Positions 11,636-20,693 of a stretch of 28,612 nucleotides of DNA are shown in pieces. Both the position numbers and the translations under genes were made by a program. This stretch comes from a virus: the IMG/VR virus record IMGVR_UViG_3300006734_000030, positions 1 to 28,612 of that record. One strand, given 5' to 3'. The first letter of the stretch is position 1. The number at the start of each line of letters is the position of its first letter. The notes under the pieces were generated by a model that saw nothing but the letters and a program-made list of their open reading frames with translations, ran no database searches and was not told the DNA's origin.

Positions 11636-11943
11636 TGGCAGAAAAAAAGATAACTGAACTACCTAGCGCGGGCACAAGTCCAACAGACAGCACGCTAGTA
11701 ATAGGGCAAAACACTCAGACGTACAAATACACGTTTAAGGAGTTTAAAGAGGGTATAATGACCGGATTGCCCTATAAGGCGGCAGACAGTGGCACGTACA
11801 TTAAACTAAAGCCAGACGGCAATACAAACACCGTAGATGAGGCGGGTGACTGGAAGCTAGGTATTGATAGCGATGGCAACTTTGCCATAGATTACTTTGA
11901 CGGTACAAGTTGGAAAAACAAGCAAAAATTTAACAAAGGATGA
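11635..11943 (+). CDS. Small tail-fibre adaptor-like protein
   Basis: 102 aa from the ATG at 11635 (TAATG overlap with the previous stop; an upstream in-frame ATG at 11623 is less likely). The N-terminus A-E-K-K-I-T-E-L-P-S-A-G-T-S-P-T-D-S-T-L has the K-I-x-E-L-P-x-A repeat-like signature found at the start of many phage fibre proteins, usually as a trimeric attachment segment. The C-terminal half (G-T-Y-I-K-L-K-P-D-G-N ... W-K-L-G-I-D-S-D-G-N-F) looks like a beta-hairpin shaft. It overlaps the fibre gene by 4 nt. Confidence 0.6.
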   Translation: MAEKKITELPSAGTSPTDSTLVIGQNTQTYKYTFKEFKEGIMTGLPYKAADSGTYIKLKPDGNTNTVDEAGDWKLGIDSDGNFAIDYFDGTSWKNKQKFNKG

Positions 11944-13904
11944 GAAAACTAATTACAGCATTACTGACTATTATAAACCTTACCACGTTTGCACAGGTAG
12001 GCAATACCTATCAAATAGGCGGTGTAGGTGATGAGCAGGGTGGCGATACACTAGCCTACTATTACTTTGCCAACAGGGACAGTAACGGGCGTGCAGGTCT
12101 GCTAATTCATAACGTAAAAGACAGCCTTTGGATAACGCTAAACGACACCGCTAGGATGTTTAGTAACGTACCGTTTGAGATTAGCGGGCAAATTTTACAA
12201 GATAGCATTTTTGCGGACAGCATAAGCACCGCTGCACTACGTAGCGAGCGCGTTTATGTTGGCAACCTGCTAAATACAGGTGTAGTAGGTGGTAATGGTT
12301 CAGGTAAGCTAGTAAAAGCGTATTGTGTTAAGTCGATTACATGGTCACACGCTGACAGCCTGCTAACTGATAGCCTGCTGGATGTTTGCTGTAACTACTT
12401 TATAACTGATAAGGACGTACTATTGATACCTGCCGACAGTGGCAGCTTTGCAGCTGGTGGATATTACCGTGCTAACCGTAGCGGTACCATTGACTGGGAG
12501 GTTATCCAGTATAGCTTTGAAGATAGCCTTATTACCTACCGAGCCGATAAGAACGGAAATGAGGTGTATTGTAGTGTGCTGTTTAACACCTTTACCAACT
12601 TGACGGTTCACGATATGTTTTGCTGGGATAATGCAGCAGCGGCTAATGTAACGGTACGTGATGCAGTTTTTGAGTGTGCCAGTGCTACACTTATTAACGT
12701 GGAAATCGAGGGCTTTAATCCCGGCTTGGGCGTGTTTAGGGTAATAGAAACCGGAGCGATTAGCATAACCAATAGTAAGCTAGTTGGCTTTAGTGGTGAT
12801 ACTATATTGATTGATAACTGCAACTTTAGCCAAAACACCTTTATTGGGGCGTTGAGTTGTACCATTACCACTATTCAGGATTTTGTGGGTAACCAAGTAT
12901 ATGATGAAAGTTTTATAATAGCAACCGACACAGCCGATGTAGGCGGTAACTTCTTAACGGGCTTTAGTTCTATCCAAGCCAGCGACAGCACAAGGATTAA
13001 TGGAGCGTTTTTAACCAACGGTAGTAATGCCATACTAACCAACAGGCAAGCATTAAGTAATGCAGAATTGAGCGCGTCCAATGTAACGGGTAGCTGTTTA
13101 AGTGGCACTAATGTTTACAGTAGCACAGATGTAAGGGCGGTATATGCTAATATTATAATTGACAGCCTAGCTAACTTAGGACGTATTGACGTGCATGGGA
13201 AAAGCGGTAGCCAGACCATAACCTTAGCAGGCTATGGCGATGCTAACATAAGCGGTAGTATGATTAACAGCCAGAACGTAGTATGCACAGGGGGTACGTT
13301 TGTAGATATGGTTATTGACCCGATTAGCAGCTTAGATACCTTATTTTTAGACCCTGACAGCATAACCAGCACCAGCACCATAGTTGGTGAATTTCAGATG
13401 TACGATGGTACGCAATCGGCTGGGAAGGTAATGCAATCTGATGCGTATGGTAATGCCAGTTGGGTAAATATCTACGGATACGGTGAAATGGGCTTTGGTG
13501 ATAGCAGTGCAGTAGTAGCCGTAACGCAAAACGTGTGGGAGGTAGTCACCAATGGCAATGAGGATCTTTGGGCAGTTGGTGCTATTGACTTAGTAGGTGT
13601 AACCTACACTAATGACAGCCTTATAATTAACAGGGCAGGCACCTATACTATACAGGCACAAGCCAGCCTAACTATGAGCAGCAACAGCCGGGTAAAACTT
13701 GGGGTGTATAAAAATGGCAGTTTGCTATGCACTTGCGTTTTACCCGTACATATTGACAATGGAAAATACTCTATTGCCAGTTACTTAGATGTTGCTGAGT
13801 TAGCCTTTGGTGATGTTTTGCAGGTAGTAATCATGAATGAAACCGACAGCAACCCCATAACATTTAAAGGCGGTAAGATAGTAATAGACTACAAAGGCAC
13901 GTAA
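11940..13904 (+). CDS. Tail fibre with signal peptide and TNF/C1q-like tip
   Basis: A 654-aa protein. The first 19 residues (MRKLITALLTIINLTTFAQ) have a basic n-region, a hydrophobic core and a TFA-like cleavage site, like Bacteroidota secretion signals and odd for a virion protein. Residues about 60-470 are repetitive beta-strand turns rich in Asn, Thr, Ser and Ile, fitting a right-handed beta-helix or fibre shaft. Residues about 515-654 (G-T-Y-T-I-Q-A-Q-A-S-L-T-M, V-K-L-G-V-Y-K-N-G-S-L-L-C, F-K-G-G-K-I-V-I-D-Y) match the strand pattern of a trimeric TNF/C1q-type jelly roll, often the receptor-binding tip. It lies between a fibre adaptor and another tail protein. Confidence 0.7.
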   Translation: MRKLITALLTIINLTTFAQVGNTYQIGGVGDEQGGDTLAYYYFANRDSNGRAGLLIHNVKDSLWITLNDTARMFSNVPFEISGQILQDSIFADSISTAALRSERVYVGNLLNTGVVGGNGSGKLVKAYCVKSITWSHADSLLTDSLLDVCCNYFITDKDVLLIPADSGSFAAGGYYRANRSGTIDWEVIQYSFEDSLITYRADKNGNEVYCSVLFNTFTNLTVHDMFCWDNAAAANVTVRDAVFECASATLINVEIEGFNPGLGVFRVIETGAISITNSKLVGFSGDTILIDNCNFSQNTFIGALSCTITTIQDFVGNQVYDESFIIATDTADVGGNFLTGFSSIQASDSTRINGAFLTNGSNAILTNRQALSNAELSASNVTGSCLSGTNVYSSTDVRAVYANIIIDSLANLGRIDVHGKSGSQTITLAGYGDANISGSMINSQNVVCTGGTFVDMVIDPISSLDTLFLDPDSITSTSTIVGEFQMYDGTQSAGKVMQSDAYGNASWVNIYGYGEMGFGDSSAVVAVTQNVWEVVTNGNEDLWAVGAIDLVGVTYTNDSLIINRAGTYTIQAQASLTMSSNSRVKLGVYKNGSLLCTCVLPVHIDNGKYSIASYLDVAELAFGDVLQVVIMNETDSNPITFKGGKIVIDYKGT

Positions 13905-14695
13905 TGGCTAACCAAGTTATAAATACACGCGCTGTAACCTGTACAGCCTGCTACACTTTAGAAGTAGAAGCCACTGACTATGTTAGCGGTACTACTACTT
14001 TTGAGTACGGCTATACTGACAGGCTTGGCACGTGGTATAAACTTGGGGATATAGGAACCATTACAGCAAACGGCAACTACACCTTTAACATTGATATTAC
14101 AGATGACCTAACCGTACCTGCCAGCACTTTGAACGCGCAATGCAGTATTGACGCTGCTACGGGGTTAAGCCGAATGAGCAACTTTGCCATACGTTACAAT
14201 GACGATGCAGACGTTACACTTAGCTTTGGCGGGTTCTACTTAGACCCGACTTGTGAAAGCGGACAATACACTAGCTACTGCTTTGAGGTGGATAGTGAGA
14301 ACTGCACTATACTACTACAATGGAGCAATGATAAGAACGCTTTTGGTTTTAACTATGTAGACTTTGACTTTACTCAAAGCCTACGGGTTAACGGGCAGGT
14401 ATGGTTCCCGCGATACCTTGAAGAGAACAACCAGTACACAGGAAGCACAGGCGTAAACACTATTGTAAGTGCTACTAACTACAAAGTAAATGAGGTGCGC
14501 ATAGACGAATTACCTGAGTATATCCACGATGCTATAAGGCTTGGTAGGATTCACAGGTTCTTCACTATTGACGGAATAGAATACGTTGCTTTACCGGGCG
14601 AATACGCGCCAGATTGGGATGCTTACAGGCCTATGGCTACGGCTACCTTTGAGGTGCGTAAAAAGACCGAGAACAACGAGAACGATAATTGTTAG
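13904..14695 (+). CDS. Tail/baseplate-associated protein, 263 aa
   Basis: A beta-rich protein coupled to the fibre gene by a TAATG overlap. It has an N-terminal Cys pair (C-T-A-C, 13-16), immunoglobulin-like strands in 17-120, and further cysteines at C-E-S-G-Q-Y-T-S-Y-C-F-E (about 116-127). The C-terminal third (L-P-E-Y-I-H-D-A-I-R-L-G-R-I-H-R-F-F, Y-V-A-L-P-G-E-Y-A-P-D-W-D) is a domain often seen in Bacteroidota phage structural proteins, in my recollection. There is no enzymatic motif. It is followed by a structured leader and the strongly initiated gene at 14761. Confidence 0.6.
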   Translation: MANQVINTRAVTCTACYTLEVEATDYVSGTTTFEYGYTDRLGTWYKLGDIGTITANGNYTFNIDITDDLTVPASTLNAQCSIDAATGLSRMSNFAIRYNDDADVTLSFGGFYLDPTCESGQYTSYCFEVDSENCTILLQWSNDKNAFGFNYVDFDFTQSLRVNGQVWFPRYLEENNQYTGSTGVNTIVSATNYKVNEVRIDELPEYIHDAIRLGRIHRFFTIDGIEYVALPGEYAPDWDAYRPMATATFEVRKKTENNENDNC

Positions 14696-14700
14696 CTATC

Positions 14701-14760
14701 TAGGCACGGTACGGCCTAAACAGTCCATGTTTTTTAACCATTTTAAAAAGGAGGTTTCCA
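14701..14760 (+). promoter_or_regulatory. Structured leader A: hairpin, T-tract and strong Shine-Dalgarno
   Basis: Hairpin TAGGC/GCCTA (14701-14705, 14714-14718) with loop ACGGTACG is followed by AAACAGTCC, a six-T tract (14730-14735) and AAAAAGGAGG (14745-14754), 6 nt before ATG 14761. Most other genes here lack a Shine-Dalgarno. The same order of parts precedes the capsid gene (22735-22791). It may attenuate upstream read-through, stabilise the mRNA 5' end or boost initiation. Confidence 0.6.
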
Positions 14761-15276
14761 ATGGCAATTTATTGCGACAATGTCCCCGACTTTGTGCTTG
14801 ATGCCTGTGCGACCGAAAAAGGTAGAATAACGGCTGTTGCTTATATCCGTAGTGATTTTGAGTTTACAGACCCTACCGATGCCAACGAATGGCAGACCGG
14901 AATAGATGCCGGACAAATTAAGATTATCAAGAAAGTACGTGGTGCCAAACCAGTGGCCACACCTACTGAGATTGACGGCTTTGGTTTGTCGCGTACTAAG
15001 ACGGTTGGTTTTGACCGCACGGCAGATTACGCGCATGAGAACGTTGAGGGCAATGAGGACTTCTACGATGTGTTGAACTTCGATAACTCGCACCGTTTTG
15101 CTTTTGTTACCGCTGATGATAAGGTCTGGATAGGCGATTCAGCAGTGGCTAACATTAACGCTGACAGTGTAGTTGAGGAGGGTTTGGATTCTATTGTTTA
15201 CTGGCAAGTGTCAGTACAGTGGAGTTCAAACGTGATACACAAAGCGTATGACATCCCGACCGGGATATTTACCTAA
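14761..15276 (+). CDS. Abundant structural protein, probable major tail tube protein
   Basis: A 171-aa protein without enzyme motifs: an N-terminal C-D-x-V-P-D segment, a beta-rich middle (G-R-I-T-A-V-A-Y-I-R-S-D-F-E-F, T-E-I-D-G-F-G-L-S-R-T-K-T-V-G-F-D) and a C-terminal strand pair ending W-S-S-N-V-I-H-K-A-Y-D-I-P-T-G-I-F-T. It shares with the capsid gene a hairpin/T-tract leader, a strong Shine-Dalgarno and a preference for CGN arginine codons, all pointing to high expression. The major tail protein is the most likely such product and no better candidate is obvious. Its position after the fibres rather than before the chaperones is unusual. Decoration protein is the alternative. Confidence 0.55.
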   Translation: MAIYCDNVPDFVLDACATEKGRITAVAYIRSDFEFTDPTDANEWQTGIDAGQIKIIKKVRGAKPVATPTEIDGFGLSRTKTVGFDRTADYAHENVEGNEDFYDVLNFDNSHRFAFVTADDKVWIGDSAVANINADSVVEEGLDSIVYWQVSVQWSSNVIHKAYDIPTGIFT

Positions 15277-15283
15277 CCAAAAA

Positions 15284-15316
15284 GCACCCCGTATGCCCCG
15301 TAAGGCAGAGGGGTGC
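15284..15316. terminator. Two-part hairpin at the tail/glycan-cassette boundary
   Basis: GCACCCC (15284-15290) pairs with GGGGTGC (15310-15316), and an inner stem TGCC/GGCA (15294-15297, 15304-15307) extends it. On the + strand it is followed by AATCCTTTAC, a weak T-run; on the - strand by TTTTT. It sits between the stop at 15274-15276 and ATG 15330, so it may partly lower transcription into the cassette or protect the 3' end of the abundant upstream mRNA. Confidence 0.5.
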
Positions 15317-15329
15317 AATCCTTTACATT

Positions 15330-16064
15330 ATGATTCTCACAATAGCAATAGGAAAGAAAGAATACGGTCAAATGGCTTTTAACCTAGCCGTAACGCTTAA
15401 AAAGCATAGCGACCTACCCATAAGCGTAATAACAGACGATAACGCATTAAAAGGCATACCAGAGGCCGATATGTGGGTATTTGACCAGATAATACACACC
15501 ACCGAGAAAAACCCGTTTAAACTTAAGTGCTACCTAAACGAGTTAACACCATACCCGTACACCATATTCGTTGATGCCGATTGCGTTTTTTTACAAGAGC
15601 CTAACCTAAAAGCCAGCCTGCATATTGAGGGTATTGATGAGCCGTTATATTGGGCAACAGCAGACGCTATTAAAGACCATTACAAGGTAGACACTAAAGG
15701 CATTAACACGAGCCTGATAGCTTGGAAAACCAGCAAAGCTAATGATAAGTTTTTTACAGCAGCACAAAAGGCATACGACAACCCCATGCCTAAGTATAAA
15801 CACATAGGCGGGTGGTATCCTGATGAAATACCGTTTGCAGTTGCAGCGGCTAAAAAGAAACTAGCCAGCCCCGTAGTGTTCCACCATAGCGACAAGAAAT
15901 ACAGGCTAGGTGATGCTAAAGGCTACACCGTACTGAGCATGAACGGCAAGATGTCACCTTATGACCCGATGGTAAGACATTACAATATGATTGCTAAAAG
16001 TGCCAGTTTAGATTTTGGCCTAGCGCATTACCCATTTAAACCCAATGCAAAGGTGTTCAAATGA
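15330..16064 (+). CDS. Glycosyltransferase, GT-A fold (DxD)
   Basis: A 244-aa protein starting M-I-L-T-I-A-I-G-K-K-E-Y-G-Q-M-A-F-N-L-A (1-20), an N-terminal Rossmann-like strand and helix. The metal/nucleotide-sugar motif F-V-D-A-D-C (80-85; D82, D84) follows a K-L-K-C-Y-L (64-69) helix, as in GT8-like and related nucleotide-sugar transferases. Later motifs are G-I-N-T-S-L-I-A-W-K (123-132) and D-E-I-P-F-A-V-A (165-172), and a C-terminal H-Y (214-215, in V-R-H-Y-N) that may bind the metal. It is the first of five overlapping genes and overlaps the next by 4 nt. The sugar donor and acceptor are unknown; virion protein, host surface glycan or DNA are possible acceptors. Confidence 0.75.
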   Translation: MILTIAIGKKEYGQMAFNLAVTLKKHSDLPISVITDDNALKGIPEADMWVFDQIIHTTEKNPFKLKCYLNELTPYPYTIFVDADCVFLQEPNLKASLHIEGIDEPLYWATADAIKDHYKVDTKGINTSLIAWKTSKANDKFFTAAQKAYDNPMPKYKHIGGWYPDEIPFAVAAAKKKLASPVVFHHSDKKYRLGDAKGYTVLSMNGKMSPYDPMVRHYNMIAKSASLDFGLAHYPFKPNAKVFK

Positions 16065-16924
16065 GAATCAACATTTTTACAGCCCTTAACGGTGTAGGCT
16101 TGCAGAGGGATGCGTACATACTTGAACAAGCATTACAGGGGCATGAGATTACCATAGTAGACCTGAATAAAACACCACGCCCGAAACGTGCAGACGCTAA
16201 CATATTCTGCGAAATTATAAAGCCCAACTTTTTAAAGATAGCCCCAAAGAACTACTTTATACCAAACCCCGAATGGTTTATGATGGGTTGGCAGCCGTAC
16301 CTAAAGCGGATGGAAATCCTGAATAAGACTAGGTTAAGCCAACGGGCATTTGGTGGTGAGTATATCGGGTTTACTAGTTTAGACTTTTACCAGCCTAACA
16401 AGGTTAACAGGTGGGCACACTTTAGCGGTAAAAGCAGTTACAAAGGCACTGAGGCACTTATTGACGCATGGAAGCCCGAATATCCAGAACTGGTAATAAA
16501 GCGCGACAGGAATCAGATAAAGGTGCAGAAAAAGAATATCAGTTACCAGTTTGCCCGATTACCTGAAGAGCAATTCCAAAAGTACTTTGGTGAAACGCTG
16601 GTGCACTTTTGCCCGTCAATAGCAGAGGGGTGGGGTCATTACATTTGGGAGGCTATGGGCGCGGGTAGCGTAGTAGTTACAACAGATGGCGCGCCCATGA
16701 ATGAGTACATAGATGATGATAGGCTACTGGTAAAGACTAAAGGCTACGCGGTACTCAATAAAGGTATTAAACACACTATTGACGTTAAAGACCTGCAAAG
16801 GGTAGTAGATGGCTTGATGGGTTTAGATCAAAGCGAACTAATACAAATAGGCCAACAGAACAGGCAAACATACTTAGATAATGATAAAAGGTTTACGGAA
16901 AGAATTAGAAGCGTTTTCGCGTGA
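16061..16924 (+). CDS. Glycosyltransferase, GT-B fold (GT4-like)
   Basis: A 287-aa protein with an N-terminal Rossmann strand (R-I-N-I-F-T-A-L-N-G-V-G, 2-13) and a C-terminal nucleotide-sugar domain: F-S-G-K-S-S-Y-K-G-T-E-A-L-I-D-A-W (121-137), then H-F-C-P-S-I-A-E-G-W-G-H-Y-I-W-E-A-M-G-A-G (182-202) with the E-x7-E pair E189/E197, then T-T-D-G-A-P-M-N-E-Y (207-216). This is the GT4-type retaining glycosyltransferase signature. It is somewhat shorter than typical cellular GT4 enzymes (350-400 aa), as is common for phage versions. It overlaps its neighbours by 4 nt and 44 nt, so it is translated from the same mRNA. Confidence 0.75.
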   Translation: MRINIFTALNGVGLQRDAYILEQALQGHEITIVDLNKTPRPKRADANIFCEIIKPNFLKIAPKNYFIPNPEWFMMGWQPYLKRMEILNKTRLSQRAFGGEYIGFTSLDFYQPNKVNRWAHFSGKSSYKGTEALIDAWKPEYPELVIKRDRNQIKVQKKNISYQFARLPEEQFQKYFGETLVHFCPSIAEGWGHYIWEAMGAGSVVVTTDGAPMNEYIDDDRLLVKTKGYAVLNKGIKHTIDVKDLQRVVDGLMGLDQSELIQIGQQNRQTYLDNDKRFTERIRSVFA

Positions 16925-17483
16925 TATACTGATAACAGGACACCCGCGCAGCGGTACGGGTTACTGTGCAAAGTTATTGCATCATAACGGGCTAGATGTA
17001 CCCCATGAGCAAATAGGAGGTATGGGTACAAGTAACTGGCAGTTTGCCGTGGATAGTAAAAACATACCTTTTAGCTTTGACGGCATACAGCCTGTACAAT
17101 GCAACTTTATACACCGTATTCAGGTGGTGCGTAACCCTGTTAAATGTATTGCCAGTGTGTTTTATACCGAACATGGCAGCGAATATTTTAGGGATAGCTA
17201 TTTGATGCTAACGGGCAACCGAATGGAGCGGGCGGTGCGTAGCGTTATAACGTGGAATACGATGCACAAGGATAGGGCAGACCTGATATTTAAGCTAGAG
17301 CAACCCGAACAGTTATTAGAGTACCTTAAAGGGCATGGCTACTTAAATACTTATGAGGTGTTAACAGAGCCAGTAAACACGCGCCCGCATGACGATTTAG
17401 ATTTAGATTTTATTAGGGCTTGGGTAGACCCTGAAATATACGGTAATTTGCTTAACTTTATAGCATGGTACAAAAAAATATAG
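16881..17483 (+). CDS. Sulfotransferase-like P-loop protein
   Basis: A 200-aa protein with D-I-L-I-T-G-H-P-R-S-G-T-G-Y (15-28), matching the 5'-phosphosulfate loop of PAPS-dependent sulfotransferases (xPRSGTxx), and V-V-R-N-P-V-K-C-I-A-S-V-F (82-94), matching the 3'-phosphate-binding R-D/N-P-x3-x-x-S motif (R84, S92). These two sites define the sulfotransferase fold. The start at 16881 overlaps the GT-B gene by 44 nt; there is no later in-frame ATG before the P-loop. At 200 aa it is shorter than most sulfotransferases, with a brief acceptor-binding part. It would move sulfate from PAPS to a hydroxyl, most simply on a sugar added by the neighbouring transferases. Confidence 0.65.
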   Translation: MIKGLRKELEAFSRDILITGHPRSGTGYCAKLLHHNGLDVPHEQIGGMGTSNWQFAVDSKNIPFSFDGIQPVQCNFIHRIQVVRNPVKCIASVFYTEHGSEYFRDSYLMLTGNRMERAVRSVITWNTMHKDRADLIFKLEQPEQLLEYLKGHGYLNTYEVLTEPVNTRPHDDLDLDFIRAWVDPEIYGNLLNFIAWYKKI

Positions 17484-18103
17484 GGAACATTACGCTGTAC
17501 TTAGATGACCCTGCAATAGCAGATGAGATGGGTAGCGGGTTTTATGAGCCGTGGTTACTAGATTTCATTAAGGCTAATGTAAGCGGTGGAACGTGGATAG
17601 ATTGCGGGGCTAACTTTGGCAATCATACGGTATGGTTTGATAAGCATTGTTATAATACCAAGGTAGTAGCTATCGAACCTATGCCTGAAAACCTAGAGTA
17701 CCTGCAACGTAATGTAAGTGTAAATGATTGCAGTAAAACCCGAATAGTAAAAGCAGCGGTAAGCGATAGGAAGGGCAAAGGTGAAGCAGTACGCATAGGC
17801 CGTAAAAGCCAATACAAGGTACAGGAAGGGCGCGGTGCTATTCAGGTGATAACTATTGACAGTTTGAAGTTACGCGATGTTAGGCTAATTAAAATGGATG
17901 TGGAAGGGCATGAGATGGCAGCCTTAAAAGGTGCGCACGATACTATCAAGAAATACAAGCCTGAGTTATTTATTGAAATATGGCATGACCTTGACAAGTT
18001 CCAGCAGCATTTAAGCCAGTACGGTTATGAGGTTAAGCAACGCTATTGCCATGCACCCGTTTATCATTTTTCAACTAAAGACTTTCCGAGGTTATTGAAA
18101 TGA
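17465..18103 (+). CDS. FkbM-family methyltransferase
   Basis: A 212-aa S-adenosylmethionine-dependent methyltransferase. Motif I is W-I-D-C-G-A-N-F-G-N-H-T (44-55), the acidic strand end is V-V-A-I-E-P-M-P-E-N (67-76), and the FkbM signature L-I-K-M-D-V-E-G-H-E-M-A-A-L-K-G-A (141-157) is present complete. FkbM enzymes O-methylate sugars and polyketides. It overlaps the sulfotransferase-like gene by 19 nt and the next transferase by 4 nt, so it belongs to the same cassette, where methylation of a sugar hydroxyl is the likely job. Confidence 0.85.
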   Translation: MVQKNIGNITLYLDDPAIADEMGSGFYEPWLLDFIKANVSGGTWIDCGANFGNHTVWFDKHCYNTKVVAIEPMPENLEYLQRNVSVNDCSKTRIVKAAVSDRKGKGEAVRIGRKSQYKVQEGRGAIQVITIDSLKLRDVRLIKMDVEGHEMAALKGAHDTIKKYKPELFIEIWHDLDKFQQHLSQYGYEVKQRYCHAPVYHFSTKDFPRLLK

Positions 18104-18942
18104 AAGTAGTACTGATACCCGTATTTAGGAGGCCTGAGTTCTTGACCGTGTGTTTAGAGTACATACGGGCGGCTACCTATTGCGATAACTACCACTACAT
18201 TTTTTTATGTGATTTCGGGTATAGCCGCGATAACCTCAACGTAATAAACCAGTTCCCTTTAAGTAAGGAGATAATAAAGCGCGGCAAGCACAAGTTTAAA
18301 CCCATTACTAAGCAATCATACAACTTATTGGAGGGCTACCGTTACGCGGTTGAGTTAGGTGCGGAAAAAGTGTACCTAATTGAAGATGATATCTTCATTG
18401 CTAATGACTTTTTTAAGTGGCATGAGCAGGCACAGCAACTGCACCCGCTGACCATAGCCACAGCCAACAACAACACCAAGTTTGAGGTAAGTAATGACCT
18501 TACTAAATGGTATTTGGGGGCTAATGCAGACTATCAAAGTTTAGGGGTATGTTGGGATGCGGAGTTACTCAAAGAACTGGTATTACCACACGCTAATGAT
18601 AACTACTATAAAGACCCCGTAGGCTACTGTATTAAGCACTTGCCGGGCAATATTATTGGTAGGCACTTTGTAGAACAGGATGGCCTAATAAGGCGGTGCA
18701 TACAGGATAAAGTACAGGCACTATTTCCACATGTACCCCGTGCGTTCCATGCAGGTTTTATAGGTTACAACAGGCGCGGGCGCAAGCCAGAGGGCGTAAC
18801 GGTTGACCAGAAAGCAAGGAGGGTAAAAGAAATAGCAGCAGACCCCGAACTTATGAAACGGTACGTAGAACGGCCAGAGTATTATGAAGACAGCAAGCCT
18901 ATCAACTTAATAAATGAAAATTGGGAACAGTTATGTATATAG
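18100..18942 (+). CDS. Glycosyltransferase, GT-A fold (EDD type)
   Basis: A 280-aa protein. It opens with K-V-V-L-I-P-V-F-R-R-P-E-F-L (2-15), the N-terminal strand and nucleotide-binding turn of GT2/GT13-like enzymes. The segment Y-N-L-L-E-G-Y-R-Y-A (74-83) leads to V-Y-L-I-E-D-D-I-F-I-A-N-D-F-F (91-105), in which E-D-D (95-97) is the metal-binding motif as in GlcNAc transferase I-type enzymes. A C-terminal R-A-F-H-A-G-F-I-G-Y-N-R-R-G-R (about 214-228) could bind the donor phosphates. It overlaps the portal gene by 10 nt, placing the cassette directly in the head operon. Confidence 0.75.
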   Translation: MKVVLIPVFRRPEFLTVCLEYIRAATYCDNYHYIFLCDFGYSRDNLNVINQFPLSKEIIKRGKHKFKPITKQSYNLLEGYRYAVELGAEKVYLIEDDIFIANDFFKWHEQAQQLHPLTIATANNNTKFEVSNDLTKWYLGANADYQSLGVCWDAELLKELVLPHANDNYYKDPVGYCIKHLPGNIIGRHFVEQDGLIRRCIQDKVQALFPHVPRAFHAGFIGYNRRGRKPEGVTVDQKARRVKEIAADPELMKRYVERPEYYEDSKPINLINENWEQLCI

Positions 18943-20693
18943 ATTTTACAGACCAAGAACAGGCCACAAGTTACCTGTCTTACATTATAGACGGCAACAA
19001 GCACAGTTACTACGACTACACCGTAGAACATGCCGCTGAAATGAGCGTGCATATTAAGGGTGACCAGCCGGGTGCATTGCTTAATGATTACAGGCCAAAC
19101 GAGCCAGCGGAAATACATGACTACCGATTAAGGATATGGCAGCCTATTACTAAGTCAAGCAGCAAACGCGCTATTAGTGTTATCCAACGTATCAACAATA
19201 GCAGGTATTATAGCATTGACTTCCCACCACAGCCGGACAGCATTACCGATACACTGGAAACGTATCTAACAACTAGCTACCCGCGTTTTGATAGTTTGAT
19301 ACACTGGCTGTTTGATGTGGCACTTAAGGATATGCTAAATGACCCAAATGGGGTAGTAGCGGTATTGCCTATTGATTTGGATGTACCGGATAATGAGTAT
19401 TACCAGCCTTATACGTTTTGCTACCGTAGTGACCAAGTAATTGACAAGGGCGAAAACTACTACACGATACTATTGGATGAGAAAAGCCCCGTTAAAGTGG
19501 GACAGGTTGAGAAACTGGAAGGTAATATTTACTACGTATTTACCGAAAAGCAGCTTATTGAGTTTAGGCAGGTAGGCGTAAAAGCGGACGATAAATATGA
19601 ACAAACAACCCTGCTAACCTATAATTTAAGTGACCCGCCTGTATTTGAACTGGGTGGTGAATACGTGTCGGGTACATACCCCATGATCTATGAATCATTT
19701 ATGAGTGGCATTTTACCGTTCTGGAATGATGCTGTACGTGAGTATTCGGATAAGCAAGCCAACTTTGTACAGCATGTGTACTTAGAGCGTGTAGAAATGC
19801 AGGTGCGCTGTGATAACAGGGGGTGTATGCCACAAGATGAATTACAGGGCATGTACGGCATTAAAAGCGGTGACGGTTGCAAAGTGTGTGAGCGATGCAG
19901 TGGCACAGGCTACATAAGCGGACGCAGCCCTTATGGTATTACCGTTGTTAAGGACAAAGATTGGACTGAGGCACAAGAAAAACAGGAGTTCCCCGGCGTA
20001 ACCTATATTGACAAGCCTACCGAAATAGTAACCCTATTGACCGATGACATTAAGGAGTTGATAAAGAAAGGCTTTGAAGCTATCAATATGGACATACTTA
20101 ATGAAGTTGGGGAAAACCAAAGCGGGGTAGCTAAGACCATAGACCGGAGCGACTTAGATGCGTTCCTGCTATCCATATCAAACAGGCTGTTTAATATTTA
20201 CAGTATGGCAGCCTACTACATAGGCTATTTTAGGTATAGCAACGTATTGCAGGACTGGCAGGATTACCTACCAGATGTAAACAAGCCTACCAACTTTGAT
20301 GTGCTTACCAGTGGCATGTTAGCAGATATTTTACAGGCGGCAAAACAAGCCAAACTAAACCCGCACTTGATTGACGAACTGGAAAAAGACTATGTTAATA
20401 AGCAGTTTGGAAGCAACGAGAAACTAAGGCGTAAACACACCTTGTACATTGAACTTGACCCGCTAAGTAATGTAAGTGAAGAGGATAAATACACTCGTTT
20501 AATAAATGGTGGTATCACCCGAACGGACTACATAGTGAGTTCAAATATCAAGCAGTTTGTTAACCGTGCTTTACAGGAGCAAGACTTTTTGGAACTTGAA
20601 AGGTCTGAGCAGTTAGCGATATTGCGCGGGTATGCAAGTGAGCAAGTGCAGAACATAGCACCGATACCAAACAGGGGTGAAGATGGCCAGTAA
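18933..20693 (+). CDS. Portal protein
   Basis: 586 aa from ATG 18933 (preferred to a TTG at 18921). Its size, its location just before MuF-like, scaffold and capsid genes, and its composition fit a portal: a charged N-terminus, a long beta/alpha wing domain, helical stem and crown segments near 385-460 (I-K-E-L-I-K-K-G-F-E-A-I-N-M-D-I-L-N-E-V-G-E-N-Q-S-G) and an acidic tail. The N-E-x-G-x-N-Q-S-G segment is typical of portal stems. Unusual is a cysteine cluster C293-x4-C298-x17-C316-x2-C319-x2-C322-x-G-T-G, like a zinc ribbon of DnaJ type. The dodecameric portal is the DNA gate of the head. It overlaps the next gene by 11 nt. Confidence 0.85.
   Translation: MYIDFTDQEQATSYLSYIIDGNKHSYYDYTVEHAAEMSVHIKGDQPGALLNDYRPNEPAEIHDYRLRIWQPITKSSSKRAISVIQRINNSRYYSIDFPPQPDSITDTLETYLTTSYPRFDSLIHWLFDVALKDMLNDPNGVVAVLPIDLDVPDNEYYQPYTFCYRSDQVIDKGENYYTILLDEKSPVKVGQVEKLEGNIYYVFTEKQLIEFRQVGVKADDKYEQTTLLTYNLSDPPVFELGGEYVSGTYPMIYESFMSGILPFWNDAVREYSDKQANFVQHVYLERVEMQVRCDNRGCMPQDELQGMYGIKSGDGCKVCERCSGTGYISGRSPYGITVVKDKDWTEAQEKQEFPGVTYIDKPTEIVTLLTDDIKELIKKGFEAINMDILNEVGENQSGVAKTIDRSDLDAFLLSISNRLFNIYSMAAYYIGYFRYSNVLQDWQDYLPDVNKPTNFDVLTSGMLADILQAAKQAKLNPHLIDELEKDYVNKQFGSNEKLRRKHTLYIELDPLSNVSEEDKYTRLINGGITRTDYIVSSNIKQFVNRALQEQDFLELERSEQLAILRGYASEQVQNIAPIPNRGEDGQ

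Follow-up and report, generated by a model that had tools for sequence, protein, structure and literature searches.

To our knowledge, glycosylation of the virions of tailed phages has been shown mainly in mycobacteriophages. The virion proteins of mycobacteriophages Che8, Corndog and Myrna are reported to be glycosylated (PMC12363180), and modification of the capsid and the tail tube has been attributed, in cluster O phages, to three tandem glycosyltransferase (GT) genes that follow an O-methyltransferase gene (PMC11600133). In Krili, a Corndogvirus, the gene order is portal, O-methyltransferase, GT, GT, GT, capsid protease and MCP; the cassette genes overlap by 4-8 nt, and gp32 overlaps the portal gene of that phage by 4 nt.

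Here, a cassette of similar design is described in DNA represented by a single IMG/VR virus record of 28,612 bases, the whole of which is referred to as the window. Like genes 32-35 of Krili (Corndog-type, cluster O), the cassette comprises overlapping genes for a methyltransferase and three GTs and directly adjoins the portal gene within the virion operon. However, the Krili enzymes are a TylF-type methyltransferase and GT25/GT2-like GTs rather than FkbM, GT-B and GT13-like enzymes, the Krili cassette follows the portal gene whereas that of the window precedes it, and the window encodes a sulfotransferase that the Krili cassette lacks. In the case of Che8 genes 108-110 (cluster F), GTs are likewise combined with a methyltransferase domain, but the genes are found at the right end of the genome, outside the virion operon, and the GT domain of gp108 is homologous to a GT of distant relatives of the window and not to any of the five proteins of the window. 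BLASTP comparison of these five proteins with the Krili and Che8 enzymes gave no match, and the resemblance to the Che8 and Corndog cassettes is thus taken as one of design rather than of descent.

An earlier note on this DNA had considered a sulfated and methylated virion glycan to be new. With regard to the sulfotransferase this still holds, and a literature search of limited scope found no report of a sulfated phage virion glycan; a methyltransferase, on the other hand, has precedents in Krili gp32 and in the C-terminal domain of Che8 gp108. Judged from sequence, the elements that appear new relative to known virion-glycosylation cassettes are the sulfotransferase, the non-homologous set of enzymes, and the host group.

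Layout of the locus upstream of the portal gene

The five ORFs of the cassette (15330-18942, plus strand) overlap one another by 4, 44, 19 and 4 nt, and the end of the last ORF, encoding the EDD GT, overlaps the portal gene by 10 nt when the ATG at 18933 is taken as its start (Table 1). The coordinates agree with the earlier description of five overlapping genes between a structural gene and the portal, including the extent of the final overlap. Because each of the five has homologues elsewhere, they are not chance ORFs, and active-site motifs are intact in all five proteins.

Table 1. Features of the window from the tail-module gene to the portal gene
Feature	Coordinates	Strand	Basis or remark
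Tail-module protein	13904..14695	+	Left edge of slot; homologue directly before GT1 homologue or portal in relatives
Shine-Dalgarno-like AAGGAGGT, strong, of tail-tube gene	14748..14755	+	Sequence
Tail-tube (major tail) protein homologue, 171 aa, possible acceptor	14761..15276	+	Position in relatives, fold
GC-rich hairpin without T-run, between tail-tube gene and cassette	15284..15316	+	MFE -22.4, z -3.8
GT1, DxD glycosyltransferase, glycogenin (GT8)-like	15330..16064	+	Conserved at portal slot in relatives
GT-B glycosyltransferase	16061..16924	+	PF00534; paired with EDD GT in other phages
PAPS-type sulfotransferase	16881..17483	+	Motifs, homologues, model
FkbM-family methyltransferase	17465..18103	+	PF05050, fkbM_fam, motifs
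EDD glycosyltransferase, GT13/GT16-like	18100..18942	+	Profile similarity, EDD motif
Portal protein, ATG start; TTG at 18921 also in frame	18933..20693	+	phrog_7376 3.9e-9; relatives

Upstream of the cassette lies a gene whose product was not identified by PHROGs, and its identity comes from position and fold. The list of Foldseek matches consists almost entirely of tube-fold proteins, with a modest VIA Z of about 8, and the product is accordingly assigned, on its modelled fold and its position, as a tail-tube protein. All relatives that span the two genes, including the prophages, have the homologue of this gene ~6-7 kb downstream of the portal gene; only in the window is it located beside the cassette, so that it has changed place from behind the capsid module to ahead of the portal. 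Joint movement of a set of enzymes and the gene for their acceptor would make sense, but this is a single event and is suggestive at best, and the choice of the tail tube as acceptor is a guess from adjacency. Of 22 genes tabulated, only those for the major capsid protein and the tail tube are preceded by an AGGAGG ribosome-binding site, making the earlier designation of the latter as a strongly expressed structural gene a fair reading of the sequence. The hairpin that separates the tail-tube gene from the cassette did not appear in the results of a terminator scan, and may shield the tail-tube mRNA or attenuate read-through into the cassette. Further upstream, a 654-aa tail-module protein (11940-13904) has a signal-peptide-like start, MRKLITALLTIINLTTFAQ, and towards its C-terminus weakly resembles TNF/C1q (E 0.068).

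In GC content and codon usage the cassette matches the structural genes, whereas the Mom gene of the window differs; a recent foreign insertion of the cassette was rejected on the grounds of this match to core genes. A ParB-like gene and, after it, the Mom-family DNA-modification gene (PF25680, 3.3e-37) together occupy 1400-2514. The Mom gene has a GC content of 0.34 and a GC3 of 0.225, as compared to about 0.43-0.44 and 0.45 elsewhere, and its 3' end is overlapped by a tRNA-Gly gene (anticodon acc; 2507-2579). The same ParB-Mom pair is found on viral contig L044 (1382-2751), upstream of GT genes, TerL and portal.

The presence of a DNA-modification gene bears on whether the GTs of the cassette could glycosylate the bases of phage DNA as a protection against restriction, a role for which there is precedent in virus-encoded GTs that are reported to hypermodify DNA (Pyle 2024, as cited in PMC12619734). 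However, no base hydroxymethylase is found among the window proteins scanned, which is weak evidence given that the record is a fragment, and the phage possesses the Mom-type gene instead, with the cassette residing in the virion operon. With no hydroxymethylase among the proteins scanned, a Mom-type gene present and the cassette in the virion operon, DNA glycosylation by the cassette GTs was rejected, and we regard it as highly improbable.

The cassette enzymes

The three GTs have different affiliations. In GT1, a DAD motif is present at residue 82, and the DxD is invariant in 11 homologues; no Pfam family was matched, and the best PDB profile match is to glycogenin, at a weak E of 0.004. Homologues of GT1 are found at ten phage or MAG loci. 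The second enzyme, the GT-B, matches PF00534 above the cut-off (1.9e-7) and has an E-x7-E motif at residue 189. The third has an EDD motif at residue 95 and homologues in 14 viral loci found by profile search, and a 12-member profile matches POMGNT1 (2.8e-11), GnT-I (1.3e-6) and MGAT2 (1.6e-6), such that motif and profile similarity would place this protein with the GT13/GT16 GlcNAc transferases. Assignment of the FkbM methyltransferase is supported by PF05050 (3.4e-19, 70.1 bits against a cut-off of 22.7), by NCBIfam fkbM_fam (1.7e-29, 103.1 bits against 37.7), by the SAM motif DCGANFG at residue 46, and by DVEGHE at residue 145. Motifs and profile searches refined the identities first proposed for these four enzymes (DxD GT, GT-B, FkbM and EDD GT).

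All five proteins lack membrane segments, the highest 19-residue hydropathy being 1.18, and three GTs that are soluble by hydropathy in one overlapping gene group is the arrangement expected of a virion-glycosylation cassette. A membrane-bound seroconversion (gtr-like) cassette was rejected, as there is no flippase and the GTs have no membrane segments.

For the sulfotransferase, searches of PDB by sequence gave no identification, and the Pfam match is marginal, with PF13469 at 3.7e-4 and 21.3 bits, below the cut-off of 27, which is a curated threshold rather than a biochemical criterion; just one of 18 family members matches PF13469. The sequence nonetheless contains the 5' and 3' phosphosulfate-binding motifs of PAPS-dependent enzymes (GHPRSGTG at residue 20, and VRNP at residue 83 with a Ser), and the core of these is invariant in 18 homologues. 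It was an AF2 model (pLDDT 86) that identified the protein. Foldseek alone found nothing below E 0.001 in PDB, but on VIA-align of the model to the top Foldseek chains the sulfotransferases ranked first, with TPST2 at Z 11.4 and an rmsd of 4.0 over 170 residues. A viral structure library gave as best matches a capsular polysaccharide synthesis protein of a giant virus and several entries that bear the name sulfotransferase. The model thus has a predicted sulfotransferase fold, and motifs and model alignment together sustain the original description of the protein as sulfotransferase-like, in spite of the marginal Pfam score.

The fold also raises the matter of what is sulfated. Since the closest folds, at Z 10.9-11.4, are those of the tyrosylprotein sulfotransferases TPST1 and TPST2, sulfation of protein is a live rival, whereby the modified virion would bear an ordinary, unsulfated glycan, while the sulfotransferase would act on tyrosine or another residue of a virion protein and the FkbM enzyme would likewise have protein as its substrate. 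However, carbohydrate sulfotransferases of the same fold are close behind at Z 8.4-8.8, a small difference, and a fold does not give the acceptor; in addition, relatives of the sulfotransferase are mostly found beside GT or FkbM genes. We consider sulfation of protein in place of glycan quite unlikely.

Related genes at the portal slot and in other phages

Searches with the portal protein gave relatives both among viral contigs and in genomes of Bacteroidota, in support of a Bacteroidota host; in INPHARED, no relative was found by DNA, portal protein or MCP protein. The closest relative (L002, with 86% portal identity) ends inside the portal gene, placing the cassette region outside the comparison. 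In ten distant relatives (nine viral contigs and one MAG contig), a GT1 homologue is the sole gene that separates the tail-module homologue from the portal, and synteny, named beforehand as a check, is borne out for GT1 in these ten. Six Bacteroidales prophages, whose portals are 32-34% identical, have no GT ahead of the portal gene. The number of enzyme genes in this slot is consequently 0, 1 or, in the window, 5. Because the sulfotransferase, GT-B and EDD GT were not found in distant relatives of the same virion lineage, GT1 is the only enzyme conserved in place.

Among viral relatives that cover the region, an FkbM gene adjoins TerL (7 of 12 records), and there are also a PF00535 GT and, immediately following TerL, a GT-like gene, all in the virion operon. 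The PF00535 GT is the one with similarity to Che8 gp108, being 32-36% identical to its GT domain in all five checked contigs that cover the gene. The virion operons of relatives thus repeatedly hold glycan genes, which marks such genes as a trait of this lineage. The portal protein of the window has, at residues ~297-330 (numbered from the TTG start), a CxxCxGxG-like, zinc-finger-like stretch whose Cys and Gly residues are conserved in six aligned relatives.

Outside this lineage, the GT-B and EDD GT genes are found as a pair. Four Streptomyces phages (Satis, JustBecause, Kela and Frankenweenie) have homologues of both that are adjacent, in the same order as in the window and with a 4-nt overlap. 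These lie in the virion operon, flanked by the capsid gene on one side and the tape measure gene on the other, and the gene for the major tail protein is three genes away. Unlike in the window, neither a sulfotransferase nor an FkbM gene separates the pair, which lies near the major tail protein gene and does not abut the portal. On contig L044, the pair is directly upstream of TerL and portal. In single-sequence scans of viral contigs with the sulfotransferase and the EDD GT there were no matches; it was profiles that gave 41 and 14 loci, respectively.

The sulfotransferases of the 41 viral loci and of Phage C48C1 (C48C1 / IMG-VR family) belong to the same sequence family as the protein of the window (35% identity). 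They often have FkbM or GT neighbours, but are mostly in large phages, outside portal-abutting cassettes. For instance, an FkbM gene precedes the sulfotransferase in L065, L072 and L087, while at other loci it is adjoined by GT genes, by genes for an epimerase or a nucleotide-sugar dehydrogenase, or by a second sulfotransferase gene. At 34 of the 41 loci the neighbours include a glycan gene, a methyltransferase gene or another sulfotransferase gene, a count that includes many close kin, has no random control, and draws its exemplars from the same loci. A search of 395 genomes of Bacteroidota gave no member of this sulfotransferase family, an empty answer that is weak evidence, and one clear EDD GT, which may or may not be encoded by a phage.

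GT-B enzymes, FkbM proteins and sulfotransferases are frequent in cell-surface polysaccharide clusters, and at one locus (L066) the genes next to a relative of the sulfotransferase encode an epimerase and a nucleotide-sugar dehydrogenase. Both observations would suit a cassette that modifies the surface glycan of the host late in infection, for instance against re-adsorption of progeny to debris, or to exclude other phages. However, the cassette has no membrane segments, flippase or polyprenyl-phosphate enzyme, and a position in the late virion operon, by tail tube and portal, recurs in several phage lineages, leaving modification of the host surface unlikely.

Proposed function of the cassette

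The most likely function, as judged by sequence and by analogy, is decoration of the virion of a tailed phage of Bacteroidota, and we consider this probable. Decoration is favoured because the GT1 slot before the portal is conserved in ten relatives, because cassette genes recur in other virion operons, and because the Corndog-type cassette, which is reported to modify capsid and tail tube, shares the layout. It is also favoured by the tail-tube gene adjoining the cassette only in the window, and by the soluble nature of the proteins and the match in GC and codon usage to structural genes. The proposal of virion decoration in the earlier note thus stands as the best-supported reading, on the strength of the portal slot, the other virion operons and the Corndog-type layout, whereas the sulfated, methylated chain that accompanied it we only infer.

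Late in infection, the three soluble GTs would assemble a short sugar chain on a virion protein of high abundance, the acceptor most likely being the tail tube, encoded by the adjoining gene, and/or the capsid. The glycogenin-like GT1 could put the first sugar on protein, and GT-B and the GT13-like EDD enzyme could lengthen the glycan. The FkbM enzyme would place a methyl group on a hydroxyl, and the sulfotransferase would transfer sulfate from PAPS of the host, resulting in a capped, negatively charged sugar coat that may act in shielding or through a changed surface charge. We infer the order of action, the acceptor, the sugars and the placement of methyl and sulfate on the glycan, and either group could instead go on protein. 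In its most specific form, the proposal is a tentative one, possible but somewhat doubtful as a whole: that the tail tube, perhaps also the capsid, carries a sulfated and methylated glycan, which would be the first one with sulfate known from the virion of a bacteriophage, and that the cassette responsible evolved separately from those in mycobacteriophages and has had its acceptor gene move next to it.

The comparison suggests that unrelated lineages, such as phages of Bacteroidota and of Streptomyces, place GTs beside portal or tail genes using largely unrelated enzymes, to which the window adds a methyltransferase and some cassettes seem to add a sulfotransferase. A charged, capped sugar coat could alter adsorption, mucus binding or recognition by antibodies. 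Virion decoration would also provide a testable role for many phage sulfotransferases, the function of which has been stated as unclear (PMC10580990). In large phages (L058, L060-L062, L066 and L068), these sulfotransferases are found among genes of GT-like kinds (DUF2827, HtrL/YibB, PLOD-type GT, GT25 and Gly_transf_sug), and in L066 a UDP-glucose dehydrogenase, an epimerase and a second sulfotransferase are encoded beside the sulfotransferase.
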